Assembly (NCBI GenBank): GCA_005779305.1
Contig: SXJR01000584.1
Coordinates: 1-53,047 of the forward strand
Source of the DNA: Myxococcales bacterium
GTDB lineage: Bacteria; Myxococcota_A; Polyangia; Haliangiales; Haliangiaceae
DNA length: 53,047 nt
Reading direction: 5' to 3'
Positions within the stretch are counted from its first letter, which is position 1; each line of letters opens with the position of its first letter. Shown piece after piece: positions 19,997 through 49,396 of this stretch. The notes under the pieces were generated by a model, which was given only the letters and a program-made list of their open reading frames with translations, was not told the origin of the DNA and made no database searches. The position numbers and the translations under genes are program-made.

Positions 19997-20045
19997 TTTG
20001 CCGACGATATCCCGTCGGCGACCGTCCCGTCCACGGTCGGGGGGC

Positions 20046-23297: not shown

Positions 23298-24523
23298 GGG
23301 GGCTCCGCTGCCGTCGGGATGTCGCACGCCAGCAGGCGATCCCAGGCGGGGTCGCGGCCCAGGGCGGCGAGCAGCGCCAGTCCGATGCCAGCCGCACCCT
23401 CCAGGAAGTCGCCGTCGTCGCGCGGGATCGGACTCCCGTCGGCGGCGGTCGCGATCACCCGGAAGCCGCCGACCCCGGCCCCCGGCGTTCGCATCGCCAG
23501 CGCGCGCGCGAACCAGTCGCGCGCCGCGGCGCCGAAGCGCTCGTCGTCGCTGGCCTGGTAGAAGCGGTTGTAGATGTGACCGAGGCCGGCCGCGCCGTGG
23601 CAGAGGCCCGCATCCTCCACGCCGCACAGGTGGACGGGCCGCCCGACGCAAGCGAGCGCCATGTCGACGACGGTGTCGAGCGGATCGCCCAGCCGTCGCC
23701 TCGCCGACCACAGCGCCGCGAGCACACCGGCATCGCCGTAGCACCATGCGGTACGCGTCGGTCTGGGCGCGAACCCGGGCGCGACCCAGGCCGGGAACTG
23801 TCCGCGCGGCTCGGACGACAGGTGTTGCTGCATGATCCAGCGGTCGGCTGCGCGCGCGATCGCGCTCGCGCGCGGATGGGGATCCGGCGCGGACGCGGCA
23901 CGCCCCATCAGCGCGATCACGCCGGGCACGCCGTGGGCGAGACCACAGTTCTCGTAGCCGTTCGGGAACTGCGCACGCTGGTGGTGCGGCACGTGGTCCA
24001 CCGGCGTGTGCCACGACATGACGCCGCCGCGCCTCGATCCCAGCTCGTCGAGGACGTCGATCACGGCGTGCAGTCCGCGGCGCGCGCCGGGGCGCGGGGC
24101 CCGCTCGAGGAAGTAAACGCCGAGGCCGACGAGCCCGCTGATCAGGTCGTAGTGACCGGTCCACGATCCCCGATCCGCCACCATCGCCGTCAGCTGCTCG
24201 TCGACGTCGAGCAGGAACTCCTCGCAGTCGTCGCCGGTGAGGTGGTGGATCGTCCAGGCCGCGCCGACGATGCCGTCGTAGAGCGACGCGCTGGGGAGAC
24301 CGGCGGCGACATGGTCCTCGACCCGGCCGAGCGCTGCGTCGTAGCGGTCGCGGTTCTCGTCGTCGTCGAGCGCGGCCGCGGCGTGGGCGCAGAACAGCGC
24401 CTGGTCGATCGGGTTGCGACCGACGCGCGGCCGCGTCGCGAGGTCGTCGCCGATGGCCCGTACCGCCGCCCACGCCGCCTCGGCGAGCTCGCCGTCGAGG
24501 AGCGGACGCCAGCTCGCCGTCAC
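23294..24523 (-). CDS. lanC: Lanthionine cyclase LanC (operon copy)
   Basis: 409 residues. Zinc-dependent cyclase of the class I pathway. Canonical motifs are all there: GLAHGVPG, AWCYGDAG (Cys at about 261) and LCHGAAG (Cys-His at about 308-309); these give the two Cys and one His zinc ligands. It is longer than the other LanC at 15163-16221 and keeps the usual WCYG. The start codon overlaps the stop of the HlyD lipoprotein gene (ATGA) and its stop overlaps the lanB start, so HlyD, LanC and LanB are translationally coupled. It presumably partners LanB directly at the membrane with the exporter. Confidence 0.95.
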   Translation of the reverse strand: MTASWRPLLDGELAEAAWAAVRAIGDDLATRPRVGRNPIDQALFCAHAAAALDDDENRDRYDAALGRVEDHVAAGLPSASLYDGIVGAAWTIHHLTGDDCEEFLLDVDEQLTAMVADRGSWTGHYDLISGLVGLGVYFLERAPRPGARRGLHAVIDVLDELGSRRGGVMSWHTPVDHVPHHQRAQFPNGYENCGLAHGVPGVIALMGRAASAPDPHPRASAIARAADRWIMQQHLSSEPRGQFPAWVAPGFAPRPTRTAWCYGDAGVLAALWSARRRLGDPLDTVVDMALACVGRPVHLCGVEDAGLCHGAAGLGHIYNRFYQASDDERFGAAARDWFARALAMRTPGAGVGGFRVIATAADGSPIPRDDGDFLEGAAGIGLALLAALGRDPAWDRLLACDIPTAAEPP

Positions 24524-25401
24524 CGCAGCCTCACGGTGACCGCCAGCCCGGGCCGCAGCGGGGCCAGCCCGCTCGCCACGGCGGTCAGCTCGCCCTCGAC
24601 GATGACCATGCGCGACGCCGAGTCGACCACCGGCGACAGGTAACGCACGATCGCGGTGCGCGGCGTCGGCTGGGTCTCGATCTGGACGTCGACCTCGGTG
24701 CCGACCGCGAGCCGGTCGACGCGTTCGGGCGGCACGGCGAAGCGCAGGCGGACCTCGCCGTCCCCGACCACCCGCACGATGGGCGCGCCGGCGCTGACGT
24801 TGGCCCCCGCGTCGCGGTAGCGGATCGCGACGGTGCCGGCGAACGGGGTGCGGATCGCCGTCTCGACGTGCCGGCTCTGGGCGGCGGCGAGCCGCGTCCG
24901 CTGCTCGGCCAGCGTGCTGCGCGCGCGATCGGCCACCGCCTTGGCCTTCTGCAGCGCCAGCTCGGCGGCCTCGAGGTTGTTGCGCGGGCTGGTTCCAGCC
25001 GCGACCGCCGCTCGCTCGCCGTCGACGAGCCAGGTCGCCTCGGCCACGCCGACGTCGGCTTCACGGCTCGCGGCCTCGACCGCACGCAGCGCGGCCTCCG
25101 CGGCGCGCACCTCCTCGGCGAGCAAGGCCGAGTCCATCTCGGCGATCAGCGCTCCCGCCGCGACCCGCTCGCCGACGCGCACGTGGACCTGGGCAACGCG
25201 GCCGGCGATGCGCGGGGCGATGTCGACCGCCTCGCCCGCGATCAGCACGCCGACGAAGCCGGCCTGCGAGTCGGCCGTCCCGGCGTCCAGCGCCGCCGGG
25301 GCGGCGTCGCGTGGACGATCGCGCTCGACGCGAACCGACGGTTCGCCCGTGCACGCCGCGAGCACGAGCCCCGCCGCGACCCAGCGCGCGCGCGCCTTCA
25401 C
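24520..25401 (-). CDS. HlyD-family periplasmic adaptor lipoprotein
   Basis: 293 residues from GTG 25401, overlapping the exporter stop (GTGA). A short signal ends in lipobox LVLAAC (WVAAGLVLAAC), so the mature protein is lipid-anchored. Then come the barrel-sandwich half (VDIAPRIAGRVAQVHVRVGE), a helical hairpin (about 110-180, coiled-coil-like EVRAAEAALRAVEAA) and the second half (TPFAGTVAIRYRDAGANV, then PPERVDRLAVGTEVDVQI). Such membrane-fusion proteins bridge an inner-membrane ABC exporter and an outer-membrane channel. No TolC is encoded on the minus strand; the nearest is the TolC-like gene at 35143. The operon thus has two adaptor-type proteins, this one and the GAF-HlyD fusion. Confidence 0.92.
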   Translation of the reverse strand: MKARARWVAAGLVLAACTGEPSVRVERDRPRDAAPAALDAGTADSQAGFVGVLIAGEAVDIAPRIAGRVAQVHVRVGERVAAGALIAEMDSALLAEEVRAAEAALRAVEAASREADVGVAEATWLVDGERAAVAAGTSPRNNLEAAELALQKAKAVADRARSTLAEQRTRLAAAQSRHVETAIRTPFAGTVAIRYRDAGANVSAGAPIVRVVGDGEVRLRFAVPPERVDRLAVGTEVDVQIETQPTPRTAIVRYLSPVVDSASRMVIVEGELTAVASGLAPLRPGLAVTVRLR

Positions 25402-27629
25402 GGGCCGGCCTCGCTCGCGGCGGCGGCGGCGGTCTGATCGGCCACCAGGTCGGCGTAGACCCCGGCCCGCTGGATGAGCTCGGGGTGGGTCCCGGTCTCG
25501 GCGATCCGGCCCTGGTCCATGACCACGATCTGATCGGCGTGGATGACCGTGCTGAGGCGGTGCGCGATCACGATGCGGGTGCAGCGCAGGCCGCGCAGGT
25601 TGGCCATCACCGCGCGCTCGGTGGTGGCGTCGAGCGAGCTGGTTGCCTCGTCGAGCACGACCACGGCCGGATCGAGGAGCAACGCCCGCGCCAGCGCCAC
25701 CCGTTGCCGCTGACCGCCCGACAGCGTGCCCCCGCCGTCGGACACGACGGTCTCGTAGCCCATGGACATGGCGACGATGTCGTCGTGCACGTGGGCGCGG
25801 CGCGCCGCCAGCGTCACCGTCTCGTGGCGAGCCGCGGGATCGGCGAGGGCGATGTTGTCCCGGATCGAGCCGGCGAACAGGAACGGCTGTTGCGGCACCA
25901 TGCCGAGCTGGCGGCGCAAGAGCCCGCCGTCGAGCTCGTTGAGGTCGTAGCCGTCGTAGAGGATCCGGCCCTCGGTCGGTCGGTGCAGCCCGACGAGCAG
26001 CGCGGCCAGCGTCGACTTGCCGGATCCCGAGCGACCGACGATCGCGACCGTCGACCCCGGCTCGACGCGCAGATCGACCGAGCGCACCACCAGGGGCTCG
26101 ATCTCGCCGTACCGGAACGAGACGCCGCGCAGGTCGATCGCGCCGCTGAGTCGCGGCGGCCGCACGGTCTGCTCGGGGCGTTGCTGCGGCTCGCTGGCCA
26201 GCACCTCCTCGATCCGTTCGACGTGACTGGCCATCACCTGCAGCCGCAACGCGGTCGTGATCAACCCCGAGAGCGGCAGCAGGAAGCCCGCGGCGAGAGC
26301 GGTGGTGGCGAGCATGGTGCCCAGCCGCATCGAGCCGTCGAGCACGAGCATGGCCCCGACCCCGAGCAGGACCAGCGGGGCGGCCACCTGCATCAGCGAC
26401 GTGGCCGTGTCGACCACCGCGGTCAACCGGCTGCGCTGCAGCGAGACGTTGACCTCGTCGACGTAGAGATTCGACCATCGGCCGAAGGCGCGCGACTCGG
26501 CGCCGGCGATCTTGAGGGTCTCGACGCCGGCGATCATCTGGGCCAGGTACGAGTGGGCCCGGGCCTGGCTCTCCAGATCCTGCGAGGCCAGCTCGCGGTG
26601 CCGGCGCCGCACCAGCAGCACCACCGCGACCTGCACGGCCGCGACCGCCACCGTGGTCGCGGCCAGCGCCGGGCTCAGCAGCACGATCACGAGCAGGTAG
26701 AGGATCGCCAGCGCGCCGTCGAGCAGCGACGACAGCGCGGTGGAGGTCAGCATCTCGCGGATGAGCGTGTTGGACTGGACGCGCAGCAGCAGATCGCCTG
26801 CCGACCGGCGGGTGAAGAACGCATAGGGCAGCGACAGCAGGTGCGCGACGAAGCCAAAGGTCATCTGCACGTCGACCTGCGTCCGCAGCTGGATGAGCAG
26901 ATGGGCGCGGATCAGCGACGAGAGCCCGTGGAAGAGGAGGAGCCCGCCGGTGCCCACGCCGACCACGAGCAGCACGCTGTGGTCTCCGTCGGGTACGACC
27001 CGGTCGACCACCATCGCGGTGAGCACGGGGACGGCGAGCGCGAACAGCCGCAACATCATCGACGTGACCAGCACGCGCACCAGCACGGCCCGGTGCGCGA
27101 ACAGCCGCCCGAGGTACGTCCAGACCTTGCTGCGACCGGGTGCGGTCACGGTCAGCCGGTCGGTCGGCTCGAAGACCAGCGCGATCCCCGTGAAGTGCTT
27201 GCGGAAGCGATCGAGCGGCACGCTGCGCCGTCCGTGCGCGGGGTCGATCACCTCGACGTTGTCGCCGCGCAGCCGATCGAACACGACGAAGTGATTGAAG
27301 TCCCAGTGCAGGATGCTGGCGCGCGGCAGGTGGCGAAGCCCCTCGATCTCGAGACGCACGCCGCGGCCGCGCAGCCCCAGCTGCTCGGCGCCGTGGATCA
27401 GGGCCAGGGCGTTGGTGCCGCGCGTCGTCCCGGTCGCGAGCCGGCAGCGGTCGAGCCCGGTGGTCTGGCCGTGGAAGCCGAGGACCATGGCCAGACAGGC
27501 CGCGCCGCAGTCGGCGGCCTCGAGCTGCGGGACGACCGGGATCGGACCACCACGACGGGCGCCGATGCGGCGCAGCGCGCCCAGCGCCTGATCCGCGACC
27601 TCGCCAGCGCTGCCGATCTCGCTCACCAC
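25398..27629 (-). CDS. lanT: C39-peptidase ABC exporter for lanthipeptides (LanT-like)
   Basis: 743 residues. Domains: an N-terminal C39 cysteine peptidase with QLEAADCGAACL (catalytic Cys41), HWDFNHFVVF (catalytic His) and DPAHGRR (Asp); six transmembrane helices (about 170-440); an ABC ATPase with Walker A GRSGSGKST (about residue 528), LSGGQRQR signature and Walker B VVVLDEATSSLD. These bifunctional exporters cut double-Gly leaders while secreting the cargo, which fits the VVGG and VNGG sites of the three minus-strand precursors. Start GTG 27629 or 27626 overlaps the upstream gene stop. It is a paralogue of the plus-strand exporter at 31658, but the two differ enough to suggest separate cargo. 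Confidence 0.95.
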   Translation of the reverse strand: MVSEIGSAGEVADQALGALRRIGARRGGPIPVVPQLEAADCGAACLAMVLGFHGQTTGLDRCRLATGTTRGTNALALIHGAEQLGLRGRGVRLEIEGLRHLPRASILHWDFNHFVVFDRLRGDNVEVIDPAHGRRSVPLDRFRKHFTGIALVFEPTDRLTVTAPGRSKVWTYLGRLFAHRAVLVRVLVTSMMLRLFALAVPVLTAMVVDRVVPDGDHSVLLVVGVGTGGLLLFHGLSSLIRAHLLIQLRTQVDVQMTFGFVAHLLSLPYAFFTRRSAGDLLLRVQSNTLIREMLTSTALSSLLDGALAILYLLVIVLLSPALAATTVAVAAVQVAVVLLVRRRHRELASQDLESQARAHSYLAQMIAGVETLKIAGAESRAFGRWSNLYVDEVNVSLQRSRLTAVVDTATSLMQVAAPLVLLGVGAMLVLDGSMRLGTMLATTALAAGFLLPLSGLITTALRLQVMASHVERIEEVLASEPQQRPEQTVRPPRLSGAIDLRGVSFRYGEIEPLVVRSVDLRVEPGSTVAIVGRSGSGKSTLAALLVGLHRPTEGRILYDGYDLNELDGGLLRRQLGMVPQQPFLFAGSIRDNIALADPAARHETVTLAARRAHVHDDIVAMSMGYETVVSDGGGTLSGGQRQRVALARALLLDPAVVVLDEATSSLDATTERAVMANLRGLRCTRIVIAHRLSTVIHADQIVVMDQGRIAETGTHPELIQRAGVYADLVADQTAAAAASEAGP

Positions 27630-29422
27630 AACCCCCGCAGGCCGGGCACGAGCGCGTAGATGATGCGCTCGCGCCGGACCCGCACGTCGGCGGTGCCTCG
27701 CATGCCGTCGTGGAGCTGGTAGGTCCGGCCGTCCAGGTCGAACTCGTCGTCGGGCAGGTCACCACGCACCAGCACGACCGGGCCGGTCAGCCGCAGGCCG
27801 TCCGCGACCTCTGGCCCGAGCACGCGCCGTGCCTCGCCCGGCGCGATCACGTCGAGCGAGATGCTCTCGATGAAGACGGTGTGATAGGCGTAGCGGTAGC
27901 CCTGGACCTCGAAGCGCACCGGCATTCCGGTCGCGAGCTGTGGGCGCAGGCTGCCGGGCAAGAGTGCGACCAGCTCGAGCCCCTGCGAGCCGTCGGCGAT
28001 GGTGGCGACGATGTCGCCGGGCTCGACCCGCAGACCGGCCCGCACCCGCAAGTCGGCGATGGTGCCCGCGGCGGGTGCGCGCACCACGCGGCTGTCGAGC
28101 GCGAGCTGGGCCCGATCGAGCTCGAGCCGCAACGCTCGCACGGCGGCGTCGGCGGCGGCGTCGGCCGGATCGGTCATGTGGTTGCGGAGCTGGGTCTCGA
28201 ACTCGCGCGCGATCCGCTCGACGTTGCCGCGCTGCTCGGCGTCGTCGAGTCGAGCGATCACGTCGCCGCGGGCCACCGTGTCGCCGGGCCGGGCGACGAC
28301 CGCGCCGACGATGCCGGCCGACAGGGCGCTGACATCGGCGCGGTTCGAGGCGCGCACGATCGCCGGGCCGCTGGAGTAGGTGGAGATGGTCCCGATCGAG
28401 ACGTAGGCGACGCTCGCGGCGAGCAGCGCGAGCAGAGCCCAGTAGGTCCAGCCCAGCCACGATGGGGTCACGCGGATGACATCGCCCCACGGTGGCAGCG
28501 ACTGCGCGTCCATCGCCTCGCGCCGGAACAGGCCGTCGTCGGCGGGCTCGAGCATGGCCTTGGCTTCGAGCTGGGCGGCGAGCTGGCTGAGGAACGGACC
28601 GCTCAGCGCGGCGAACGCGGCCGCGATCGCCGTGTCGGTGTCGGTGAACGCGTCGCGCCGCCAGGTCCTGGCGGCGACCAGGACGGCGTGGACCTGGCCG
28701 TCGTTGCCGTGGACCGGCGCGATCAGCAAACGATCGCGAGGATCTCCGTCGGGCGCATCGAGCGCGTCCAGGTGGCGCGGATCGTCGCGCAGCGTGTCGA
28801 CCCGGACCGTCTGACCGGTGAGGGCGGCGAACCCGACCACCCCGGCGATCGCGCGGCGCGACTCGTCGTCGTCGGCGGCCGCGGCCGACTGACTCTCGTC
28901 GGTCCAGAGCGTGCCGTCGCTGCCGTCGAAGAACAGGCAGGTGACGCGATCGGCGGCGACCAGCTCGGTGAACGCGCTGGTCGCGGCCTGCTCGAGGCCG
29001 GCGAGATCGTGCGCGGCCGCCAGCCGGCGTGACAGCGCGAACGCCCGCTGGGTCTGCTGGGCCTGATACGTGTCGGCCGGCGGCTGGGCCGAGGTCGTGG
29101 TCGGGCCGACCGCCGGGCGGCGGAACACCAGCGAACGCACGAGCAGCCCGAGATCGCCATCGCCGATCTCGGGCCGGACGACGTGGGCGACACCGGGCGC
29201 CATGGTCGCCGGCGTCGGATCGCCGAAAACGACCACCAGGGTCCGGCCGCCGGGCGGTGAGGGCACGGAGGCCAGGGCGGCGGCGGTGGTGACCACCACC
29301 GACCCGGCTGTGATCGCGGCGCCCGCCGTGGCCTCCTCGACGGCGACGTCAGGCGCCAGCACGCGGACGAGGCGCTGGCGCTGCTCGACCGGGAGCCCCA
29401 CGACGTAGGCCGTGCCGGTCAC
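27623..29422 (-). CDS. GAF-domain - HlyD fusion protein, lanthipeptide exporter adaptor
   Basis: 599 residues from GTG 29422. Three parts: residues 1-100 look like a degenerate receiver-type fold (AYVVGLPVEQRQRLVRVL, TLVVVFGDPTP); about 125-310 is a GAF domain (ALSRRLAAAHDLAGLEQA, RLLIAPVHGNDGQVHAVLVAA); a transmembrane helix (about 328-350, WALLALLAASVAYVSIG) leads into an HlyD-type periplasmic part (about 355-599) with VVARPGDTVARGDVIARLDD and RAPAAGTIADLRVRAG hairpin ends. So a cytosolic small-molecule sensing module is joined to an export adaptor. It overlaps the C39 exporter gene start, placing it in the same complex. It could gate export in response to a ligand; that is inference. The gene is 69 bases after the Cys-rich lipoprotein gene. 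Confidence 0.85.
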   Translation of the reverse strand: MTGTAYVVGLPVEQRQRLVRVLAPDVAVEEATAGAAITAGSVVVTTAAALASVPSPPGGRTLVVVFGDPTPATMAPGVAHVVRPEIGDGDLGLLVRSLVFRRPAVGPTTTSAQPPADTYQAQQTQRAFALSRRLAAAHDLAGLEQAATSAFTELVAADRVTCLFFDGSDGTLWTDESQSAAAADDDESRRAIAGVVGFAALTGQTVRVDTLRDDPRHLDALDAPDGDPRDRLLIAPVHGNDGQVHAVLVAARTWRRDAFTDTDTAIAAAFAALSGPFLSQLAAQLEAKAMLEPADDGLFRREAMDAQSLPPWGDVIRVTPSWLGWTYWALLALLAASVAYVSIGTISTYSSGPAIVRASNRADVSALSAGIVGAVVARPGDTVARGDVIARLDDAEQRGNVERIAREFETQLRNHMTDPADAAADAAVRALRLELDRAQLALDSRVVRAPAAGTIADLRVRAGLRVEPGDIVATIADGSQGLELVALLPGSLRPQLATGMPVRFEVQGYRYAYHTVFIESISLDVIAPGEARRVLGPEVADGLRLTGPVVLVRGDLPDDEFDLDGRTYQLHDGMRGTADVRVRRERIIYALVPGLRGLW

Positions 29423-29491
29423 GCGCGTTTGCTCCGCGCTTCCCCTGGTCGCATCGCGTTCACATCGTAGCGCATGTGTGGCGCGCTGCCG

Positions 29492-30262
29492 TCAGCGACC
29501 GCCGCCGCAATCTCCCCCCGAGCAGCCGCGGGTGCACGACCAGCCACACCACCAACGATCACACGCGGCGCACGCCTCGTCGTGGTGGCAGCAGATGTCG
29601 TACCAGGAGCAACCGAGGTCGCAGGCCAGCTCGGCGCTGCCGTCGGCTGGGAGCTCGGCGCCGCCGCCACGCTCGCCCGCGGCCTTGGCGCGGACGCCCA
29701 TCAGCTCCGGTCGGTGCACCAGGTTGGTGTGGACGGGACCCTCACCATCGAGACAGGCGTCATCGGCCGTACTGTCGAGCGCGTCGCCGACCACCAGGCG
29801 GGCCAGGACCTCCTCGTGCCACGGCAGCGCCATCCGCAGCGAGCTGTCGCCGAGGTCTTCGGTCAGGGTGTAGAGCGACGCCAGCGCTTGCTCGTACACG
29901 GGCATGAGCTGGAGCCACCGCTTGGGATCGCCGTCGCGGTGGGTCTTGCTCCACGCCTCGTCGCGGGCCCGCGGTCCCAGCTGATCGGAGACGTCGGTCG
30001 CCGCCGCCAGCGGGATCTCGAGACGGGTCACGATGTGCCCGCGATCGGTGATCGTCGAGCGCACCATGCCCGACGCGTCCGTCCAGGCCCGGAGCTCGAG
30101 GCGATCGACGCCGTCGTCCCACACCGCGGCGACGCCGCGACCCGGGTCGGCGTACGCGACCACGAGCGAACCCTCAGCGACCGGTCCGGTCTCGTTCGCG
30201 GCGCAGCCGAGGATCGACACGGCCGAGATGATCGAGATGAATGAGAGGTTGATCGTGTTCAC
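29492..30262 (-). CDS. Lipoprotein with cysteine-rich C-terminal tail, lanthipeptide operon
   Basis: 256 residues. The start is GTG 30262, set by an AAAGGAG ribosome site 7 bases upstream; a longer frame to 30355 would run through the precursor gene. The signal ends in lipobox ILGC (ISAVSILGC). The middle has no recognised domain (MVRSTITDRGHIVTRLEIPL; RWLQLMPVYEQALASLY). The last about 45 residues hold 12 Cys (ACDLGCSWYDICCHHDEAC, then CAACDRWWCGWSC), likely disulphide-bonded outside the cytoplasm. The C-x-x-H-D spacing in CCHHD faintly recalls phospholipase A2 active sites, not enough for a call. It is 13 bases downstream of a precursor gene, the classic place for an immunity protein, which is the working guess. 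Confidence 0.8.
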   Translation of the reverse strand: MNTINLSFISIISAVSILGCAANETGPVAEGSLVVAYADPGRGVAAVWDDGVDRLELRAWTDASGMVRSTITDRGHIVTRLEIPLAAATDVSDQLGPRARDEAWSKTHRDGDPKRWLQLMPVYEQALASLYTLTEDLGDSSLRMALPWHEEVLARLVVGDALDSTADDACLDGEGPVHTNLVHRPELMGVRAKAAGERGGGAELPADGSAELACDLGCSWYDICCHHDEACAACDRWWCGWSCTRGCSGGDCGGGR

Positions 30263-30275
30263 GAGGGCTCTCCTT

Positions 30276-30446
30276 TCAGGGGGCGCAGTACAGGAACGAC
30301 GCGAAGGGATCGGGCTCGCACCCGCACGGCACGCCGCACGACGAGTGGTAGCCATTGCCGCCGTTGACCTGACTCAGCGAGGGCTCGTTGAGCTGGCGCA
30401 GCGCGACCTTGTTCAGCTTCAGCTTCCGTTGATCTTGACGCTTCAT
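30276..30446 (-). CDS. lanA: Lanthipeptide precursor peptide (56 aa), first gene of main operon
   Basis: 56 residues from ATG 30446 with a perfect AGGAGG ribosome site 7 bases upstream. Leader MKRQDQRKLKLNKVALRQ, then LNEPSLSQVNGG: the K-L-x-L-x-K/R-x-x-L-R block matches the two precursors near 16500 although the first residues differ. Cleavage is expected after Gly30. The 26-residue core NGYHSSCGVPCGCEP... FLYCAP has four Cys (7, 11, 13, 24) and three Ser (5, 6, 20), no Thr; with fewer Ser than Cys, at most three lanthionines form and at least one Cys must stay free or go into a disulphide. It heads the long minus-strand operon behind a sigma54-type promoter. Confidence 0.93.
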   Translation of the reverse strand: MKRQDQRKLKLNKVALRQLNEPSLSQVNGGNGYHSSCGVPCGCEPDPFASFLYCAP

Positions 30447-30471
30447 GGGAATCCTCCTGCTTCCGCCATCG

Positions 30472-30487
30472 TGCAAGCAGCGGGCCG
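30472..30487 (-). promoter_or_regulatory. Sigma54-type promoter for the main lanthipeptide operon
   Basis: Minus strand CGGCCCGCTGCTTGCA matches 10 of 12 fixed positions of TGGCACGnnnnTTGCW, with a complete TTGCA -12 box. The start predicted about 12 bases beyond leaves a roughly 15-base leader that includes the AGGAGG site before ATG 30446. Confidence 0.75.
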
Positions 30488-30532
30488 TGCGCCCGCACCG
30501 TCAGCGATTGTCATGATCCTGACGGGGGCCGG

Positions 30533-30560
30533 CGGTGTGCGCGGGAAGTTGCGCACACCG
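30533..30560. promoter_or_regulatory. Perfect 10-bp inverted repeat, candidate activator site
   Basis: Arms CGGTGTGCGC (30533-30542) and GCGCACACCG (30551-30560) are perfect complements with an 8-base spacer, 46-73 bases upstream of the -24 element at 30487. It contains TGCGCAAC on the minus strand, shared with the dyad at 16799-16815. It could be a protein site or, if transcribed, a hairpin. Confidence 0.6.
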
Positions 30561-30600
30561 CGCGAACCGTCGCGCATCGTCGCGCTTCGTCGCGCATCGT
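30561..30600. repeat. Four tandem 10-bp units (CGCGnnnCGT)
   Basis: CGCGAACCGT, CGCGCATCGT, CGCGCTTCGT and CGCGCATCGT follow each other without gaps, directly abutting the inverted repeat. The 10-bp period places each unit on the same face of the helix, as in arrays bound cooperatively by a regulator. Confidence 0.7.
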
Positions 30601-30628
30601 CACGGCCTCGCCGCCTCTCGTCTGCCGG

Positions 30629-30657
30629 CGGTAACGCGATCGAACGCGCGAAGCGAG
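30629..30657 (+). repeat. 29-bp direct repeat, copy 1
   Basis: Identical over 29 bases to 30909-30937, exactly 280 bp apart. The core contains ACGCGATCGAACGCGCG with CGCG elements spaced 10 bases, like the tandem decamers nearby. Confidence 0.85.
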
Positions 30658-30866
30658 TGTGCCGGCGGCGGGCATGCCGACCAGCTGAGCGGCGGCGCTT
30701 GCAGGCCGCCGGCGCTGTTCGTGGGCGCCGTCGCCGCGGCGGTGAGCAACTCGCCGCGCTCGACAACGACCCTCGCGCTGCGCCAGGTCTTGCGCAATCC
30801 GCGCGCCATGTCGCACGCATCGAGAACACGGCTGCGCTCTGCCTCGCAAGGCGAGCCACGCCTTCC

Positions 30867-30882
30867 AGGCACGACGATTGCT
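30867..30882 (+). promoter_or_regulatory. Sigma54-type promoter for the three double-Gly peptides
   Basis: AGGCACGACGATTGCT matches 11 of 12 fixed positions of the -24/-12 consensus. The predicted start near 30893 gives a 5' leader of about 95 bases that includes copy 2 of the 29-bp repeat before the first peptide gene. Confidence 0.8.
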
Positions 30883-30908
30883 GGATGGGGCCGCAGGTCC
30901 GCCGCCGA

Positions 30909-30937
30909 CGGTAACGCGATCGAACGCGCGAAGCGAG
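30909..30937 (+). repeat. 29-bp direct repeat, copy 2 (in peptide mRNA leader)
   Basis: Second identical copy of the 30629 repeat, lying downstream of the plus-strand sigma54-type promoter, so inside the predicted transcript. It may act as a regulator site at DNA level or in the RNA. Confidence 0.85.
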
Positions 30938-30988
30938 CGCGTGTCGCCGGCAGCTACTCCATCAACGCTTCAACAAGGAGAACGATCG

Positions 30989-31153
30989 ATGAACGTGAAC
31001 TCACAACTGATCGACGTCGACTGCGACGAACTCGCACTCATCGCCGGCGGCGCAGGCTGCGACGACCTCAGCGGAATCAAGTGGGCGGCATGTGTCGCCG
31101 CCAAGGCCGTCGTCGACTTCGTCGAGGGATTCGTCGAGTACTTCGCCGGCTGA
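30989..31153 (+). CDS. Double-glycine-leader secreted peptide 1 (54 aa)
   Basis: 54 residues with AAGGAG 8 bases before the ATG. Leader MNVNSQLIDVDCDELALIAGG ends in the double-Gly site (Gly20-Gly21) recognised by C39 exporters, with the usual acidic/hydrophobic pattern D-E-L-x-L-I. The mature part AGCDDLSGIKWAACVAAK then AVVDFVEGFVEYFAG has two Cys and an amphipathic Ala/Val-rich helix, as in small unmodified bacteriocins or microcins. First of three tandem peptide genes ahead of a C39 ABC exporter. No modification enzyme is encoded on this strand. An antimicrobial or signalling role is inference. Confidence 0.88.
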   Translation: MNVNSQLIDVDCDELALIAGGAGCDDLSGIKWAACVAAKAVVDFVEGFVEYFAG

Positions 31154-31168
31154 CCAAAGGAGACCACC

Positions 31169-31333
31169 ATGAACGACGTAGACATCAACGAGCTCGAGGA
31201 AGTGACCGGCGGCGGGTGTGACACCAGCGCGGAGTGCGCCGGCCGCCTCGCCGCCCAGATCGTCGGATGCACCGCCTGGTTCTTGGGCGGCTGGATCCTG
31301 GACATGGACGGCAGCGTGCTCTGCCACGACTGA
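31169..31333 (+). CDS. Double-glycine-leader secreted peptide 2 (54 aa)
   Basis: 54 residues with AAAGGAG 6 bases before the ATG. Short leader MNDVDINELEEVTGG with double-Gly at 14-15, then a mature peptide starting GCDTSAECAGRLAAQ and ending MDGSVLCHD, with four Cys that could make two disulphides, and a central hydrophobic helix (QIVGCTAWFLGGWIL). The gene begins 15 bases after peptide 1. Leader style matches peptides 1 and 3 while the mature parts differ, as in multi-peptide bacteriocins. Confidence 0.88.
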   Translation: MNDVDINELEEVTGGGCDTSAECAGRLAAQIVGCTAWFLGGWILDMDGSVLCHD

Positions 31334-31362
31334 CCACGACCAATCACACAAAGGAGATCGCG

Positions 31363-31536
31363 ATGACAAATTTCTCGCTACAGAGTGTTTCCCAGGACGA
31401 GTTGCTGGAGATCGGCGGCGGCTGCACGCCTCCGCTGACGTTCTGGTGCGCGGTCGGCGCAGCGGCGATCGCGTCGCTGGCCGATGACATCATCGACGGC
31501 GTCGTCGAAGGCGTCAGAGCGGCTCTCGCCGACTGA
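31363..31536 (+). CDS. Double-glycine-leader secreted peptide 3 (57 aa)
   Basis: 57 residues with AAAGGAG 6 bases before the ATG. Leader MTNFSLQSVSQDELLEIGG ends at the double-Gly site (18-19); the mature part GCTPPLTFWCAVGAAAI followed by ASLADDIIDGVVEGVRAALAD has two Cys and an amphipathic helix with an acidic patch, similar in character to peptide 1. A strong terminator follows 18 bases downstream, so the three peptides form their own transcript, which would allow far more peptide than exporter to be made. Confidence 0.88.
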   Translation: MTNFSLQSVSQDELLEIGGGCTPPLTFWCAVGAAAIASLADDIIDGVVEGVRAALAD

Positions 31537-31554
31537 GCGGAGCCGGCCGGGGGG

Positions 31555-31604
31555 GCGTGGGCAGGGACGTGATGACGTCCCTGCCCACGCCTCGTCGTCT
31601 TTTC
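31555..31604 (+). terminator. Strong intrinsic terminator after the peptide genes
   Basis: A 16-bp perfect stem (31555-31570 with 31575-31590) with loop GATG is followed by a T-rich tail (TCTTTT at 31598-31603). It separates the peptide transcript from the exporter genes, which have their own promoter at 31630. Confidence 0.85.
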
Positions 31605-31629
31605 GGAGCGCGCCGGGAGACGGCGCGCC

Positions 31630-31645
31630 TGGCACATCGGTTGCT
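31630..31645 (+). promoter_or_regulatory. Sigma54-type promoter for the plus-strand exporter operon
   Basis: TGGCACATCGGTTGCT matches 11 of 12 fixed positions, with perfect TGGCAC and TTGCT boxes. The start is predicted near 31656, only about 2 bases before ATG 31658, so the exporter mRNA would be almost leaderless. It is located just after the peptide terminator. Confidence 0.8.
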
Positions 31646-31657
31646 CTGTTCGTTTGC

Positions 31658-33868
31658 ATGTTCCTGCGTCGATTCGCGTGTGTCCGTCAGGCCGATCAGA
31701 GCGATTGTGGGCCTGCTGCGCTCGCCACCGTCGCGTTGCACCACGGCCTTCGGGTCGGCCGCGAGCGATTGCGGGACGTGGCGGGGACCGATCGTATCGG
31801 CACCAACCTCGGCGGAATGGCAAAGGCGGCCGAGCGGCTCGGGTTCCTCGCGCGCGCGGTCAAGGGCCCCTACGAGGCGCTCTCCAGCGTGCCGCTGCCC
31901 GCTATCGCCCACGTCCGGACCGAGGCGGGGCTAGGTCACTTCGTCGTCGTCCACCGCGTGACCAGGCGCGGCGTCACGGTCGCCGATCCCGGGCACGGGA
32001 TCCGGACCCTGACCAGGGACCAGTTCGCCTTGCGCTGGACCGGGTACCTGTTGATCCTGACGCCGAACGCCGACCTGAGCGCCGGCGCCGCCCATGCGTC
32101 ACAGGGGCCGACCCTCCGGTTCCTGCGCCTGGTGTCTGCGCAGCGCGGGGTGCTTCTCGAGGCCTTCATCTGTGCGTTGCTGATGACGGTGCTGGCACTG
32201 GGAACGTCGTACTTCGTACAGCATCTCGTCGACTTCGTGTTGGTCCGGCGTGACGGGCGACTGCTCGACGCGTTCGGCATGGGGATGGTGCTCATCGTCG
32301 TCTTCCGCACGCTGTTCGGTACGCTGCGCCAGTACCTGCTGGCCCACGTGGGGCGCCGCGCCGGCCTGCAACTGATCGCCGACTACACACGCCACATCCT
32401 CCACCTGCCGATGCGTTTCTTCGAGATGCGACGGGTGGGTGAGATCATGTCGCGCGTGCAGGACGCGGCCAAGGTGCGCGACGCCATCAGCGGGGTGACA
32501 CTCACCGTGCTGGTCGACGGCACGCTGGTGCTGATCTCGCTGTCCGTCTTGTGGACCTACGATTCACAGCTCGCCGCGGTGGCGACCGTCACCGTCCCGG
32601 CGATGCTGCTGGCAACGGCACTCCACCACCCGGCGATCCGCCGTCGCTCACGCCAGGCCATGGAGCACGGCGCCGATCTGACCGCTCACCTCGCCGAGGA
32701 TGTCTCCGGCGTCGAGACCATCAAGGCGCTCGGGATGGAGGAGCGACGCGGCGAGGAGGGGGAGTCGAAGCTCATCAAGGTGGTGCAAGCTGCGTTCGGC
32801 ACGCAGCTGCTCGGGATCTCGAGCGGTACGCTGGCCATGGCCACGACCGGGCTGGCGAGCGTCGCCGTACTCTGGTACGGGGGGCACCGCGTGATCGACG
32901 GCGCGCTGACGATCGGTCAGCTCATGTTCTTCTACAGCCTGCTCGGCAACCTGCTCGCACCGCTCGAGAGACTGGGTTCCGTGAACATGCAACTACAGGA
33001 CGCGCTGGTCGCCGTCGATCGTCTCTACCAGGTCCTGGATCTCGACGTCGAACAAGATCGCGAGACCAAACGGTGTCCGTTCACGGGGATCCGCGACGCG
33101 ATCGTCTTGCGCGATGTCTCGTTCCAGTACGGTTCGCGGGCGCCGGTGCTCAAGCACGTCGACCTGCGCATCCCGGCAGGCGCCAAGGTCGCCCTGGTCG
33201 GCGAGAGCGGCTCGGGCAAGACGACCATCCTCAAGCTCCTGTTGCAGTTCTACGCGCCGACCGAAGGTCAGGTGCTGATCGATGGCGTCGATATCCGAGA
33301 CCTCGACGTGGTCTCGCTGCGCAGTCGCATCGGCCTGGTGTCGCAGGATCCGTTCGTGTTCACGGGCACCGTGCGTGACAACATCGCCATGGGCCGGCCA
33401 GAGGCGACGCTGGACGAGGTCGTCGCCGCGGCGCGCGCGGCCGGCCTCGAGGAGACCATCGCGCGACTGCCGATGCGTTTCGACACCGTGATCGGCGAAC
33501 GGGGGGCGAACCTGTCAGGCGGGCAGCGGCAGCGGCTCGCGATCGCCCGCGCTCTGCTGGCACGGCCCGAACTGCTCATCTTCGACGAAGCCACCAGTCA
33601 TCTCGACACCGCGACCGAGCGCGCGATCCAGGACAGCCTCGAGGTCGCGCTGGCCGGCAAGACGGTGGTCACCGTCGCCCACCGGCTGAGCACCGTTCGC
33701 GACGCCGATATCATCTACGTTCTCGAGAACGGCCAGGTCGTCGAGCATGGCACGAGCCACGAGCTGCTGCTTCTCGGTGGGCGCTACGCCAGGTTGTGGC
33801 AGGCGCAGAGCCTGCATGTGCCGGAGCTGCCGCGCCCTCGCAGCGTGATGGCGGTGAACCATGCGTGA
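31658..33868 (+). CDS. C39-peptidase ABC exporter for the double-Gly peptides
   Basis: 736 residues from ATG 31658; the frame is open upstream, but the peptidase motif so near the start (VRQADQSDCGPAAL, catalytic Cys17) supports this ATG. His is in GLGHFVVVH and Asp in VADPGHG. Six transmembrane helices lie at about 150-430. The ATPase has Walker A GESGSGKTT (about 516), LSGGQRQR and Walker B LLIFDEATSHLD. It cleaves double-Gly leaders and exports the mature peptides; the cargo is most likely peptides 1-3 just upstream. No ribosome site is seen ahead of the ATG, in line with a leaderless transcript from 31656. Its end overlaps the HlyD start. Confidence 0.95.
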   Translation: MFLRRFACVRQADQSDCGPAALATVALHHGLRVGRERLRDVAGTDRIGTNLGGMAKAAERLGFLARAVKGPYEALSSVPLPAIAHVRTEAGLGHFVVVHRVTRRGVTVADPGHGIRTLTRDQFALRWTGYLLILTPNADLSAGAAHASQGPTLRFLRLVSAQRGVLLEAFICALLMTVLALGTSYFVQHLVDFVLVRRDGRLLDAFGMGMVLIVVFRTLFGTLRQYLLAHVGRRAGLQLIADYTRHILHLPMRFFEMRRVGEIMSRVQDAAKVRDAISGVTLTVLVDGTLVLISLSVLWTYDSQLAAVATVTVPAMLLATALHHPAIRRRSRQAMEHGADLTAHLAEDVSGVETIKALGMEERRGEEGESKLIKVVQAAFGTQLLGISSGTLAMATTGLASVAVLWYGGHRVIDGALTIGQLMFFYSLLGNLLAPLERLGSVNMQLQDALVAVDRLYQVLDLDVEQDRETKRCPFTGIRDAIVLRDVSFQYGSRAPVLKHVDLRIPAGAKVALVGESGSGKTTILKLLLQFYAPTEGQVLIDGVDIRDLDVVSLRSRIGLVSQDPFVFTGTVRDNIAMGRPEATLDEVVAAARAAGLEETIARLPMRFDTVIGERGANLSGGQRQRLAIARALLARPELLIFDEATSHLDTATERAIQDSLEVALAGKTVVTVAHRLSTVRDADIIYVLENGQVVEHGTSHELLLLGGRYARLWQAQSLHVPELPRPRSVMAVNHA

Positions 33869-35132
33869 CGCTTCGATTCTCGATCTCTCCCAGTGCACTG
33901 AGTTCCGCCAGACGCTGATGGCGCGGCCGCCGCGCATCGTCCATGGCGCAGCGCTCCTGACCGCCAGCGTCGTTGCTGTCGCCGTCGCGTGGTTGGCGGT
34001 CACGCCCGCCGAGCTGGTGGTCCGCGCGCCGGCGCGGGTCCGTCCGGCGTCGGGCGTGCTCCGAGCCTTCGGCGGCTCCAGTGGGGAAGAGGTTGTCGCG
34101 GCCACGGCCGGGCGCGTCGCCGAGGTCCTGTTCCAGCCCGGCCAGACGGTGCGCAAGGGCGACGTGTTGATCCGGCTCGACGCGTCTCGTCTCGACAACG
34201 AGATCGCCGGCCTGGAGCAGACCATCGGCGTGCTCGACGACGAACTCGCCGGGATGGAGCGATTGGCGCAGCTCTCGGAGCGGCAGTTCGCCGCCGCCCA
34301 GGAGCGCGCGGGCGCCGAGCTCGCCGACGCCGTTGGCACCGTGCGTGAGGATCGCGGCCGCCGCGCGTCGCAGGCCCGCGCGGCGCTGGCCGAGCTACGC
34401 AGCGCACAAGACGAGCATGAACGGATCAGCGGCCTCGTCGCGGGCGGCGCGGCTTCGCGCAGCGAGCTCCAGGCCGCCGAGTTGCGGCTCAGCCAGGTAC
34501 GCGAGGCGGTCGCCACGGCGCAGCTGCCGGTTGGCGCGGGCCGGGTCGCCGTGCTGCACCGGGTGCGCGACCTGGCAGCGCACGATCACGCGGTGACCCT
34601 CCAGCAGCTTGGTCTGGAACAGCTGCGAACCCGTGGTGCGCTGGTCACTGCCCGCCAGCGGCTCGCGGGCCTCCTGCTCGACAAGGAGCAGACGCTGGTG
34701 CGCGCGCACCTCGACGGCATCGTCACCGCCGGCGCCATCCGGGTCGGCGACATGATCACGCCCGGCAAGGCGACGTGTGCAATCGCCCCACTCGAGGGCC
34801 TCCGCATCGACGCCGCCGTCAACGCCTCCGACGTGGCTCAGATCCGGATCGGGATGGCGGTGCGAATCCAGCTCGACGCGTTCTCGGTGCGGCGCCACGG
34901 AAGCCTGGACGGTGAGGTCGAGGAGATCTCCCCGGATGCCGACGTGGTCACGTTGCCGGGTGGAGGGCAAGCGACCTACTACCTTGTGCGCGTCGCGCTG
35001 GGCGGCGCGCGGGGTAGCGGCTTCGGCCCGCTCAAGCTGGGCATGACGGGGCAAGTCGAGATCGTGACCGGTCGGAAGCGGTTGCTCGAGGTGCTGGTGG
35101 GTGACCTGCAGAGGGCGATCAGCCTCAACTGA
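33861..35132 (+). CDS. HlyD-family membrane fusion protein
   Basis: 423 residues. The N-terminal cytosolic segment is followed by one transmembrane helix (about 28-48, GAALLTASVVAVAVAWLAV), the biotinyl-lipoyl-like half (VVAATAGRVAEVLFQPGQ), a long alpha-hairpin (about 110-260, many heptad Leu/Ala), and the return half with RAHLDGIVTAGAIRVGD and a beta-barrel end (GMAVRIQLDAFSV, PLKLGMTGQVEI). It acts as the periplasmic adaptor between the C39 exporter and the TolC-like channel of this operon. ATG 33861 overlaps the exporter stop by 8 bases, so the two are coupled. Confidence 0.93.
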   Translation: MRDASILDLSQCTEFRQTLMARPPRIVHGAALLTASVVAVAVAWLAVTPAELVVRAPARVRPASGVLRAFGGSSGEEVVAATAGRVAEVLFQPGQTVRKGDVLIRLDASRLDNEIAGLEQTIGVLDDELAGMERLAQLSERQFAAAQERAGAELADAVGTVREDRGRRASQARAALAELRSAQDEHERISGLVAGGAASRSELQAAELRLSQVREAVATAQLPVGAGRVAVLHRVRDLAAHDHAVTLQQLGLEQLRTRGALVTARQRLAGLLLDKEQTLVRAHLDGIVTAGAIRVGDMITPGKATCAIAPLEGLRIDAAVNASDVAQIRIGMAVRIQLDAFSVRRHGSLDGEVEEISPDADVVTLPGGGQATYYLVRVALGGARGSGFGPLKLGMTGQVEIVTGRKRLLEVLVGDLQRAISLN

Positions 35133-35142
35133 AGGAGCACTG

Positions 35143-36654
35143 ATGCGCACCATCGTGATGACATGCATGCTGATCTCTCTGGCGGCGGTCCGAGCCGCTG
35201 ACGCGGACGGGCCGCGAGCCGCGGGCGAGACGTTCTCGTTGCGAGAGGTGCTGCTGACCGCCGTGCGACAGAATCCGGAGCTTGCCGGCTTCTCCATGGA
35301 CGTGACCATCGCGCGCGCCGGGATCGTCGAGGCGACCGGGTCATTCGACACCACGCTCGACGCCCGGGTCACTGCAGGCACCAGCCGCAAGGACCCGACC
35401 CCGGGCGCGATCTACGAACAGCTCGAGAAGGACGGCGTCGCGGTCAGCGTCGGCGGCACGAGCCGTCTGCGGGCCGGTGGTTCAGTGTCGCTGCGCCTCG
35501 AGGCGGGGACCAACCGCACCATGAACCGGTTGTCGCAGGCGGGCCGCGACCTCGACGAGCATAGCCGCCTCTATCAGCCGACGCTCCGCCTCAGCGCCGT
35601 GCAACCGCTGCTGAAGGGGATGGGATGGGCTGCGCGGGCCCCGCTGGAGCGCGCGCGGGTCGCGACGGATGTGGCGATGCTGGCGCGTGAGGTCGCGGCG
35701 GCGACGGTGTTGCGTGACGTCGTCATCGCGTACTGGGAGCTGGTGTTTGCCCATCGCGAGCTCGAGATCCGCCGGTCGTCGCTCCAGCTAGCCAGAGAGC
35801 AACTGCGCATCGTGAAGCTCGGCATCGAGCTCGGCAAGCACCCGCCGGACGCGTTTGCGGAAGTGGAGGTCGAGGTCGGCCTGCGCGAAGAGGACGTGCT
35901 GATCGCGGAGAACGGCGTCGCCGAGCGATCCCTCGACCTCCGTCGGCTCGCCGGCCTCGAGGTAGGGCCCGGGCGGATCCTGGTCGATCCCAGCGACCAG
36001 CCGGCGGATGTCCACCCGGAGCGAGATCTCGAGGAAGCTGTCGAGCTGGCCCTGGCGCAAAGCCCCGCGCTCCAAGAGGTGCGTGGACGGCGGCGCAGCG
36101 CGGCGCTCGAGCTCCGCGCCCGTGAAGACGCGACGCGGCCCCAGCTCGACCTGCAGCTCGATGTCGCCGCGGCAGGCAGCGACCGCGAGCCGACCGACGC
36201 GGTCGGCCGCATGGCCGGGTTTGGTGGGCTCGATGCCAAGGTCGGCCTGCTCCTGACGGTGCCCCTGGCAGGCGACGGAGCTCGGGGCGCACGCGACGTG
36301 GCTCGCGGCCAGGTGCTCAAGGCGCGAATGACCGAGGCCGACGTGAGCGCGCAGGTCACGCTGGCGGTCGTGCGCGCCGTGAACGAAGTCCGGCTTGCCC
36401 GCAAGCGCGCCCTGGTGCTCGCAACGTCGGCCGAGCTCGGTCGCGTCAACCTGAGCCACGAGAACCAGCGGTACGAGCTGGGGGCCAGCACCAGCTTCGA
36501 GGTGCTCAAGCGGCAACGCGAGCTGGCCGAGATCCAGCTGCGCCAGGCGCGCGCGTCGATCGACCACCTCGTTGCCTTGGCACGTCTGGAGGCCCTCACC
36601 GGGGAGCTCATCGGGTCGTGGGGAATCGCCACCGCTGGCGAGAGCAGGAGATGA
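35143..36654 (+). CDS. TolC-family outer membrane efflux channel
   Basis: 503 residues from ATG 35143 with AAGGAG upstream. The signal peptide MRTIVMTCMLISLAAVRA precedes FSLREVLLTAVRQNPELAGF, the usual TolC first repeat. Two repeats of helix-rich sequence with Arg/Ala/Glu coiled coils follow (VIAYWELVFAHRELEIRRSS; NEVRLARKRALVLATSA) and the family ending YELGASTSFEVLKRQRELAE. Outer-membrane trimeric exit duct for type I secretion. It completes an ABC-HlyD-TolC set for peptides 1-3 and may also serve the lanthipeptide exporter, which lacks its own TolC. Confidence 0.92.
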   Translation: MRTIVMTCMLISLAAVRAADADGPRAAGETFSLREVLLTAVRQNPELAGFSMDVTIARAGIVEATGSFDTTLDARVTAGTSRKDPTPGAIYEQLEKDGVAVSVGGTSRLRAGGSVSLRLEAGTNRTMNRLSQAGRDLDEHSRLYQPTLRLSAVQPLLKGMGWAARAPLERARVATDVAMLAREVAAATVLRDVVIAYWELVFAHRELEIRRSSLQLAREQLRIVKLGIELGKHPPDAFAEVEVEVGLREEDVLIAENGVAERSLDLRRLAGLEVGPGRILVDPSDQPADVHPERDLEEAVELALAQSPALQEVRGRRRSAALELRAREDATRPQLDLQLDVAAAGSDREPTDAVGRMAGFGGLDAKVGLLLTVPLAGDGARGARDVARGQVLKARMTEADVSAQVTLAVVRAVNEVRLARKRALVLATSAELGRVNLSHENQRYELGASTSFEVLKRQRELAEIQLRQARASIDHLVALARLEALTGELIGSWGIATAGESRR

Positions 36655-36656
36655 TG

Positions 36657-37406
36657 ATGTCGCGATCCATCCTTCACATCGCGGTGCTGGTATCGGTCGG
36701 CGTGAGTGGGCTGGTTCGCGCGGGGGTCGCAGAGACGTACGGCGCCGGCGGAGCGACCGTCGGCGAGCGTGGGGCGGGGCTGGCCGGAGCCTTCGAGTCG
36801 CAGAATGGCGCATTGCTGCTGGCGGTTCGCGCCGAGTACGGTGCCGGACTGGGTGAGATGGGCGACGCGGCGGGACTCGAAGGCTTCGAGGGCACCGCCC
36901 TGTTTGGGCTGGGGCCAGCGCTCGGGCCAGCATCGGTGAACGCCGCGACCGTGTGGGACGAGCGATGCGTCGCCAAGGTGGCAGCGGTCGAGCGCGAGGA
37001 CGGTTGTTGGCTCTCCGCCACCGCCCTGATCTCCCGTGACCCGCCGGTCCGCATCTCGCGTCGGTGGGCGCTCCTCGGCGGCGCGCGCGCGGGGACCGGC
37101 GGTTTCTCCGACACGGTCCGGCTGAGCGGGGTGGTTTCCGGTCGCTGGCACCTCGGCGGTGCGAGCCGATCGTTCGGTCGGCAATTCGTCGAGTTCGGGG
37201 TCGCCAAGGTCGTTGCCGGGCGGGATCGGCCGCATCTCAAGCACACACCGCTGGTTCCTGGATGGTACGCGCGGGTTCAGCTCCAGCGCGGCCTGCTGTT
37301 CACCGCGGAGGTCGGGGTCACCGGCCTCGCCTACCGCGATCGCCAGGGTGGCTTGCTGCCCGAACTCTATGGCCGAGTCTCGGTCATGCTCGCATGGGGG
37401 ACCTGA
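36657..37406 (+). CDS. Exported protein of unknown function, peptide operon
   Basis: 249 residues. The start could be any of three ATGs at 36651, 36654 or 36657; 36657 has the best spacing from GCAGGAG. The signal peptide is MSRSILHIAVLVSVGVSG... VRA. The mature part is Gly-rich with alternating hydrophobic residues (AGLAGAFESQNGALLLAVRAE; GARAGTGGFSDTVRL; ARVQLQRGLLFTAEVGV), suggesting an eight-or-more-stranded beta-barrel ending in an aromatic/hydrophobic strand (VSVMLAWGT). Not recognised as a known family. Directly linked to tolC (overlapping starts), so a role in export or self-protection at the outer membrane is possible. Confidence 0.7.
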   Translation: MSRSILHIAVLVSVGVSGLVRAGVAETYGAGGATVGERGAGLAGAFESQNGALLLAVRAEYGAGLGEMGDAAGLEGFEGTALFGLGPALGPASVNAATVWDERCVAKVAAVEREDGCWLSATALISRDPPVRISRRWALLGGARAGTGGFSDTVRLSGVVSGRWHLGGASRSFGRQFVEFGVAKVVAGRDRPHLKHTPLVPGWYARVQLQRGLLFTAEVGVTGLAYRDRQGGLLPELYGRVSVMLAWGT

Positions 37407-37407
37407 G

Positions 37408-38094
37408 ATGCGCCCACCGATTCATGCGCTCGTCGCCCTCGTCGCCGCCGGCGCCTGCGTCGACGAACACGACGTCGACGTGTACGTCGTACTTCCCGCG
37501 CTCCCCGACGTCTGCGCGCTGGCGGGCGTCGGCCGGGTCGAACTCGCGATCGAGGGGCCCGGCCCCGAGTCGTTCTCGATCCGCTCCGAGATCTGCGAGG
37601 TACTCGAGGGCCCGTACTCGGGCTTCACGGACACGGCCGACGGCCCCTTGCGCTTCTCGCGCCTGGAGGCCGGCTTCTTCTTTGTCACGATTGTCTTGAC
37701 CGACGACGACGGCACGCAACGCGGCGACCGTTCGCTTCCGTTCGACTCCCGCGAGAGCGACCTGTTTGTCCCACTGGATCGCGTCGACCTCTGGGGGTGG
37801 CAGACGACGAGCGCGACGGTCCATCTGCCGGCCTGCGATCTCGATCCCACGCTGGCAGCGGTTCACCTCGAGCTCACGCCTGCCCTGGCGTATCGCCCCC
37901 TGCACGACGTGGTCGTGCCGTGCGCGCGCCCAGGTCCGACTCGGGCGACGTTCGACGTGCCGCTCGGACCGATCGCGATCCTGGCCGAGGGCACGCTCGA
38001 CGATGGCACACCGTGCTACGCCGGCGCGCTCGACGGGTTCTTCGACGAAGTCAGCCGAGAGGCAGATCTAGCTCTGCAGAAGGTATGTCCATGA
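37408..38094 (+). CDS. Exported lipoprotein-like protein of unknown function
   Basis: 228 residues, ATG 37408 directly after the previous stop. The N-terminus MRPPIHALVALVAAGAC is a short signal with a loose lipobox (AGAC). The mature part has a beta-rich look (VDVYVVLPALPDVC; RVELAIEGPG; FFVTIVLTDDDGTQRGDR) and six Cys in all, fitting an extracytoplasmic Ig- or carboxypeptidase-regulatory-like fold. No known family was recognised. It is the second of three exported proteins between the channel and the sigma54 activator and is a candidate immunity or accessory factor. Confidence 0.65.
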   Translation: MRPPIHALVALVAAGACVDEHDVDVYVVLPALPDVCALAGVGRVELAIEGPGPESFSIRSEICEVLEGPYSGFTDTADGPLRFSRLEAGFFFVTIVLTDDDGTQRGDRSLPFDSRESDLFVPLDRVDLWGWQTTSATVHLPACDLDPTLAAVHLELTPALAYRPLHDVVVPCARPGPTRATFDVPLGPIAILAEGTLDDGTPCYAGALDGFFDEVSREADLALQKVCP

Positions 38095-41873: not shown

Positions 41874-41995
41874 GGCGTGAGGATATGCGAGCGCCGTGCC
41901 GCGCCGTCTCGCCGTCGCCACGCCGACTTGCCGCCGCGCTGCCTGCGGCCCGGGGAGTGCCCGCCCGGGTCAGCCGACCCCGTCGGGCCAGCGCC

Positions 41996-42854: not shown

Positions 42855-42993
42855 GGCGGTCCGTGCTGCATGGCACGTGCCTGCCCAAGTCGCCGACGAC
42901 GTGATCGCGTGCCACATCGTGCCGCGCCAACCGTGACCGACCCCGGGCATCGATGTCATGGTCGGGGACCGTCCCTGGTTCGGAACCGAGCGC

Positions 42994-49352: not shown

Positions 49353-49378
49353 GCGCCGCCACGTTTGCAACCGATGGG

Positions 49379-49396
49379 CCGCGCGCAAGCGCGCGG
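49379..49396. repeat. Perfect GC palindrome in intergenic gap
   Basis: CCGCGCGCAAGCGCGCGG has 8-bp arms around AA, in the 186-bp gap between the lipoprotein start and the kinase end. A short GC-rich hairpin; function unknown. Confidence 0.55.

Follow-up and report, generated by a model that had tools for sequence, protein, structure and literature searches.

A probable sigma54 promoter abutting the start codon of a peptide exporter gene in a Myxococcales bacterium

Two sigma54-like sites in a peptide export locus

Two matches to the sigma54 promoter consensus lie near genes for double-glycine peptides and a peptidase-C39 exporter in a Myxococcales bacterium, raising the question of whether peptide synthesis and export are switched on together. 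A sequence-only reading of this stretch of DNA (53,047 nt in all; hereafter the window) had proposed that they are, with an enhancer-binding protein (EBP) acting at both sites. The two 16-mers lie where that reading had placed them, among the following features.

30867-30882, + strand: site 1, AGGCACGACGATTGCT, unconfirmed promoter with a 10/11 core
30989-31153, + strand: double-glycine peptide 1, 54 aa, Shine-Dalgarno present
31169-31333, + strand: double-glycine peptide 2, 54 aa, Shine-Dalgarno present
31363-31536, + strand: double-glycine peptide 3, 57 aa, Shine-Dalgarno present
31552-31593, + strand: strong hairpin between peptide 3 and the exporter gene, 17-nt perfect arms
31630-31645, + strand: site 2, probable sigma54 promoter core TGGCACATCGGTTGCT; transcription start predicted at ~31656-31658 from standard -24/-12 geometry
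31658-33868, + strand: peptidase-C39 ABC exporter, 736 aa (Pfam Peptidase_C39, ABC_membrane, ABC_tran; TIGR01193)
33861-35132, + strand: HlyD-type membrane fusion protein
35143-36654, + strand: outer-membrane efflux protein (TolC/OEP type), start uncertain
36618-38094, + strand: two small cluster genes, hypA and hypB, starts uncertain, with homologues in a relative's cluster
38793-40562, + strand: FHA-AAA+-Fis EBP, candidate exporter activator (Pfam FHA, Sigma54_activat, HTH_8)

Each site had been credited with 11 of 12 consensus positions. Scored against TGGCAC-N5-TTGCW, site 2 matches all 11 specified positions and site 1 matches 10; the earlier figure is true of both when the G following TGGCAC is included. 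No perfect core exists in the window besides site 2, which has GG at -24 and GC at -12 at the fixed spacing. The single mismatch of site 1 is T to A at -26, and it is one of two 10/11 sites in the window with invariant GG and GC. Both sites had also been described as standing right before genes, two of them for peptides; there are three peptide genes (ATG at 30989, 31169 and 31363), and the description suits site 2, with the exporter ATG 28 nt downstream, but not site 1, which lies 122 nt from the ATG of the first peptide, a gene with its own Shine-Dalgarno sequence.

The exporter scores 525.6 bits against TIGR01193 (curated cut-off 523.85), with C39, transmembrane and ATPase domains present, and its start at 31658 agrees with the ATG of the exporter in a same-family relative. 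An in-frame start further upstream (the open reading frame opens at 31484) was rejected because homologues begin at the equivalent of 31658; it is also disfavoured since the added N-terminal part would cross the hairpin. It is the position of site 2, more than its sequence, that is of interest. The exporter ATG is at offset 28 from the first base of the site, exactly 12 nt past TTGCT, and the leader, CTGTTCGTTTGC, has neither an SD-like tetramer nor a Shine-Dalgarno sequence. Standard sigma54 numbering assigns -12 to the C of the GC box and so puts +1 at offset 26; a start codon at such a distance thus lies about 3 nt or less from the transcription start, with no room for a Shine-Dalgarno sequence. 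Since its ATG coincides with the predicted start of a sigma54 transcript and no Shine-Dalgarno sequence precedes it, the exporter mRNA is expected to be leaderless.

Spacing of sigma54-type sites and start codons in the genome and the class

The sequence-only reading had called for a genome-wide count of equally good matches, reasoning that many of them at random places would speak against promoters. We carried out pattern searches of the host genome, an 8.08-Mb draft in 611 contigs, and found 54 sites matching NGGCACN5TTGCW, compared with 8 for the reversed pattern; a first-order Markov model predicts 19 genome-wide and 0.13 per window. Matches of this quality are thus not random here, and most of the 54 directly precede genes. 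The genome encodes one RpoN (PF04552, E 1.5e-63) and has 101 matches to the sigma54-activation domain PF00158, many of which are truncated at contig ends. Together with the excess of sites, these genes indicate that the genome has a set of genuine sigma54 promoters.

We then extracted the sequence surrounding each of the 54 sites and measured offsets from the start of the 16-mer. An ATG is found at offset 28 in 13 cases and at offset 29 in 15, with no more than 3 at any other offset; counting ATG or GTG with an open frame, 30 of the 54 sites have a start codon at offset 28 or one base further. The leaders differ accordingly: an SD-like tetramer occurs in 7 of these 30, compared with 11 of 13 where the start codon is at offset 34 or more. 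When up to one mismatch was allowed and an intact ATG demanded, 56 sites with a spacing of 12 were counted among the matches listed (13 perfect and 43 with one mismatch), against 3 at a control spacing of 20 (none perfect, 3 with one mismatch). By extrapolation, adding spacing 13 would likely raise the number of such genes in this genome to roughly a hundred or more. On these pattern counts, sigma54 promoters in the genome most often take this form, in which a predicted promoter abuts the ATG.

A crude test detected a hydrophobic or lipobox N-terminus in 21 of the 30 products encoded at leaderless offsets. Other products in the group are an ECF sigma factor, SpoIIE, PilZ, a Ser/Thr kinase and VWA proteins. 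Two leaderless-offset genes (L024 and L025, on host-genome contigs C142 and C148) encode products that start with MERARR, one of which has an eCIS core domain, which suggests that a locus related to contractile injection is under sigma54 control. Heptamer enrichment revealed no clear enhancer motif in the 150 nt upstream of the sites, and a search of part of this genome's DNA for leaderless TANNNT promoters found at most a faint excess at gaps of 6-9. Within the window, three further sites lie at the leaderless offset.

41886-41901, - strand: sigma54-like core, 9/11, before a predicted lipoprotein gene (ATG 41873)
42867-42882, - strand: sigma54-like core, 9/11, before a predicted lipoprotein gene (ATG 42854)
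49366-49381, - strand: sigma54-like core, 9/11, before a predicted lipoprotein gene (ATG 49352, offset 29)

All four window sites that score at least 9/11 and have an ATG at offset 27-30 precede plausible genes, namely the exporter gene and three genes for proteins with lipoprotein signal peptides.

The same spacing recurs across the class. Summed over 59 genomes of the class, GGCACN5TTGCT followed by ATG after 12-13 nt was found 256 times, against 34 for a control spacing of 20-21. A histogram of spacings at 150 listed places in the class, drawn from the matches listed for part of the 39 genomes searched and excluding the host genome, peaks at 12-14, with 33 of the 150 at 12-13 (binomial p about 5e-10). 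In nine genomes of other phyla, reached through named loci, the peak is absent and the spacing of 12-13 occurs in 1 of 63. We consider it likely that this lineage systematically fuses sigma54 promoters to the start codon, probably in a regulon of at least 100 genes that is rich in secreted proteins and lipoproteins and is expressed as activator-gated leaderless mRNAs.

We also found the exporter cluster in a same-family genome (L067; the contig is also that of L086 and L095), where it comprises an FHA-type EBP, OEP, hypB, hypA, the exporter, HlyD and a second EBP. There the exporter gene is preceded by CGGTACGTCGAGTGCA and the divergent hypA by GGGCGCGTGGGTTGCA, both at offset 28. These two sigma54-like sites score 8/11 and 9/11 and depart from the consensus in the -24 or -12 box. 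Since matches that good or better with GG and GC occupy 19 of 32,000 positions in the relative's 16-kb stretch, chance is an unlikely explanation for two of them at the exact offset. No sigma54 site was found at the leaderless offset in the Planctomycetes homologues L064-L066 or the distant C39 exporters L092-L094; hence, the promoter appears to belong to the lineage and not to the exporter family. The closest homologues of the exporter outside the family are those from Planctomycetota (L064, L065 and L066, 56-61% identity), of which the one in L065 adjoins double-glycine peptides, and horizontal transfer is possible.

These data bear on the possibility that both matches in the window are products of chance, over-read in a GC-rich region. 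The genome-wide chance expectation is not zero, ranging from 8 to 28 with the null used. Against this, the perfect core of site 2, its offset, its flanks and the relative's sites all agree; scored with flanks trained on the genome, site 2 reaches 5.98, ranking 37 of 54, a value attained by 0.8% of null sites. We regard chance as a highly improbable explanation, and site 2 as very probably a real sigma54 promoter on the strength of its sequence and context. With high confidence, we read it as a leaderless-type RpoN promoter whose transcript would start at the ATG or within ~2 nt of it, the FHA-domain EBP being its most likely activator.

Site 1, the hairpin and transcription of the peptide genes

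If both sites were sigma54 promoters through which one EBP turns on the peptides and the exporter, transcription of the peptide genes would start at ~30893, with a leader of ~96 nt. In favour of this, the 10/11 core of site 1 is correctly oriented and lies in intergenic DNA, and 0.0006 such cores are expected by chance on one strand of the 540-nt region upstream of the peptide genes (first-order Markov model). The cluster encodes an FHA-type EBP, and site 1 is flanked by the two copies of a repeat.

30610-30657, + strand: 48-nt direct repeat, copy 1, candidate activator site
30890-30937, + strand: 48-nt direct repeat, copy 2, between site 1 and peptide 1

The copies are 85% identical, with 28 nt exact, and there is no third copy in the genome. 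The repeat contains a near-palindrome, CGCGATCGAACGCG, and as such is a candidate activator-binding site. Several observations count against joint control, however. Site 1 is atypical for the genome, with A at -26 and A before TTGC; its flanks score -2.77, the second lowest of the 54, and 55% of null sites score as well or better. No start codon was found within 61 nt of it, which is true of only four of the 54 genome sites; beyond offset 31 the search accepted only ATG, and one locus (L061, GTG at 35) may have been missed for this reason. Site 1 thus fails to combine a genome-typical core and flanks with a nearby start codon. Nor did we find a comparable peptide locus in the same-family relative, or any homologous peptide locus bearing such a site. 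The codon at the leaderless offset of site 1 (30883-30897) is AGG, not ATG, which is probably a coincidence and possibly the trace of a decayed gene start.

Site 1 is therefore the weaker candidate, and we hold its role as a sigma54 promoter to be doubtful; joint control of both transcripts by one EBP seems to us similarly unlikely. As a hypothesis, the joint switch-on put forward by the sequence-only reading is half supported: sigma54 control is borne out for the exporter by a perfect core, typical flanks, the dominant offset and the relative's offset, but not for the peptides, given the atypical flanks and the lack of a near start. The peptide genes may have another promoter, and no sigma70-type promoters were found within 29400-34000.

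The exporter might alternatively be expressed mainly by read-through from the peptide operon, with site 2 a real but minor or conditional booster. The peptide and exporter genes point the same way, with about 120 nt between them, and the T-run of the intervening hairpin is short and offset, such that termination may be partial. That hairpin is nonetheless extremely stable (19 pairs, -53.2 kcal/mol, z -6.7), which makes co-transcription doubtful; the exporter ATG has no Shine-Dalgarno sequence to serve a read-through transcript, and its distance from site 2 is typical of the genome. On balance, predominant read-through is improbable. The hairpin is consistent with a terminator, in which case the exporter would rely on its own promoter. 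Alternatively, it could be an enhancer site, as it forms a perfect palindrome (31554-31591) and sits 39-76 bp upstream of the -24 element of site 2.

The candidate activator and relation to known systems

The activator of the exporter gene is probably the FHA-domain EBP (38793-40562) of the same cluster, judging from gene content: an FHA-type EBP is encoded in the exporter cluster of both the host genome and the same-family relative, a kinase gene adjoins it in the latter, and genes for sigma54 activators and kinases accompany related exporters in L092 and L095. A second protein of this type lies in the window, in an operon divergent from the peptide genes.

16827-30446, - strand: divergent class I lanthipeptide operon
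16827-18650, - strand: second FHA-AAA+-Fis protein, ending the operon (FHA, sigma54-activation AAA+, Fis-type HTH)
18623-20197, - strand: Ser/Thr kinase, adjoining the FHA-EBP
20046-24473, - strand: LanB dehydratase
30276-30446, - strand: class I lanthipeptide precursor (NF038153, over cut-off)
30472-30487, - strand: possible sigma54 core CGGCCCGCTGCTTGCA, 9/11, before the lanthipeptide gene

This operon also carries an HlyD protein with a GAF domain and a C39 exporter. The CGGCCCGCTGCTTGCA core is 41 nt from the lanthipeptide ATG, and a Shine-Dalgarno sequence is present.

What the DNA shows directly is the motif at a fixed spacing, enriched in the genome and found again in relatives, together with genes for RpoN and EBPs; where exporter transcription starts, which protein activates it, the signal from a kinase and translation without a leader are inferred from these. 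RNA polymerase-sigma54 would bind TGGCAC-N5-TTGCT at 31630 and be opened there by an EBP. The FHA-domain protein of the cluster is the most likely candidate, and its sensor domain would react to phosphorylation by a Ser/Thr kinase. Transcription would begin at the exporter ATG (31658) or no more than about 2 nt from it, yielding a C39 exporter mRNA with no 5' leader or Shine-Dalgarno sequence that would be translated by leaderless initiation. A cluster-specific pathway from kinase to FHA-EBP to sigma54 may be the simplest reading.

Site 2 resembles canonical sigma54 (-24/-12) promoters in its GG and GC boxes, with 10 nt from the second G of GG to the G of GC, and in its correct orientation before a gene in a genome that encodes RpoN and many EBPs. 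Canonical promoters, in contrast, are usually followed by a leader with a ribosome-binding site, whereas at site 2 the start codon is the predicted transcription start. This leaderless geometry, which had no place in the sequence-only reading, is the real novelty. Leaderless mRNAs transcribed from sigma70-type promoters are well known. A short fixed distance between promoter and ATG and the lack of a Shine-Dalgarno sequence are shared with the -10-adjacent promoters of Deinococcus-Thermus (PMC12340547) and the extended -10 promoters of Bradyrhizobium (PMC4842269, which notes that promoters specific to leaderless genes had not been described), but those are sigma70-type -10 elements, whereas the exporter has an activator-requiring sigma54 -24/-12 pair. 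Myxococcota are rich in EBPs (PMC12316311), and natural-product genes of Myxococcus xanthus are under sigma54 control through Nla28 (PMC7910581). The Nla28-regulated clusters resemble the exporter cluster in having EBP-dependent sigma54 promoters at secondary-metabolite genes and differ from it in being of the polyketide/NRPS type (PMC7910581). Leaderless transcripts are mentioned in neither PMC7910581 nor PMC12316311, and we found no description of leaderless sigma54 promoters in this group in a search mostly of the open-access literature. Like other TIGR01193 bacteriocin export systems, the cluster has a C39-ABC fusion beside double-glycine peptides and HlyD; unlike them, it has its own FHA-domain EBP and an OEP gene.

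Sigma54 promoters are the most tightly controlled type of bacterial promoter. If the geometry described here holds, class-wide sigma54 promoters at the ATG would tie this control to non-canonical translation, adding a second layer in that the ribosome must also accept leaderless messages. Sigma54 targets and their start codons could then be mined from genome sequence alone, and the assignment of EBPs to targets would become testable for peptide-export clusters with their own FHA-type activator.
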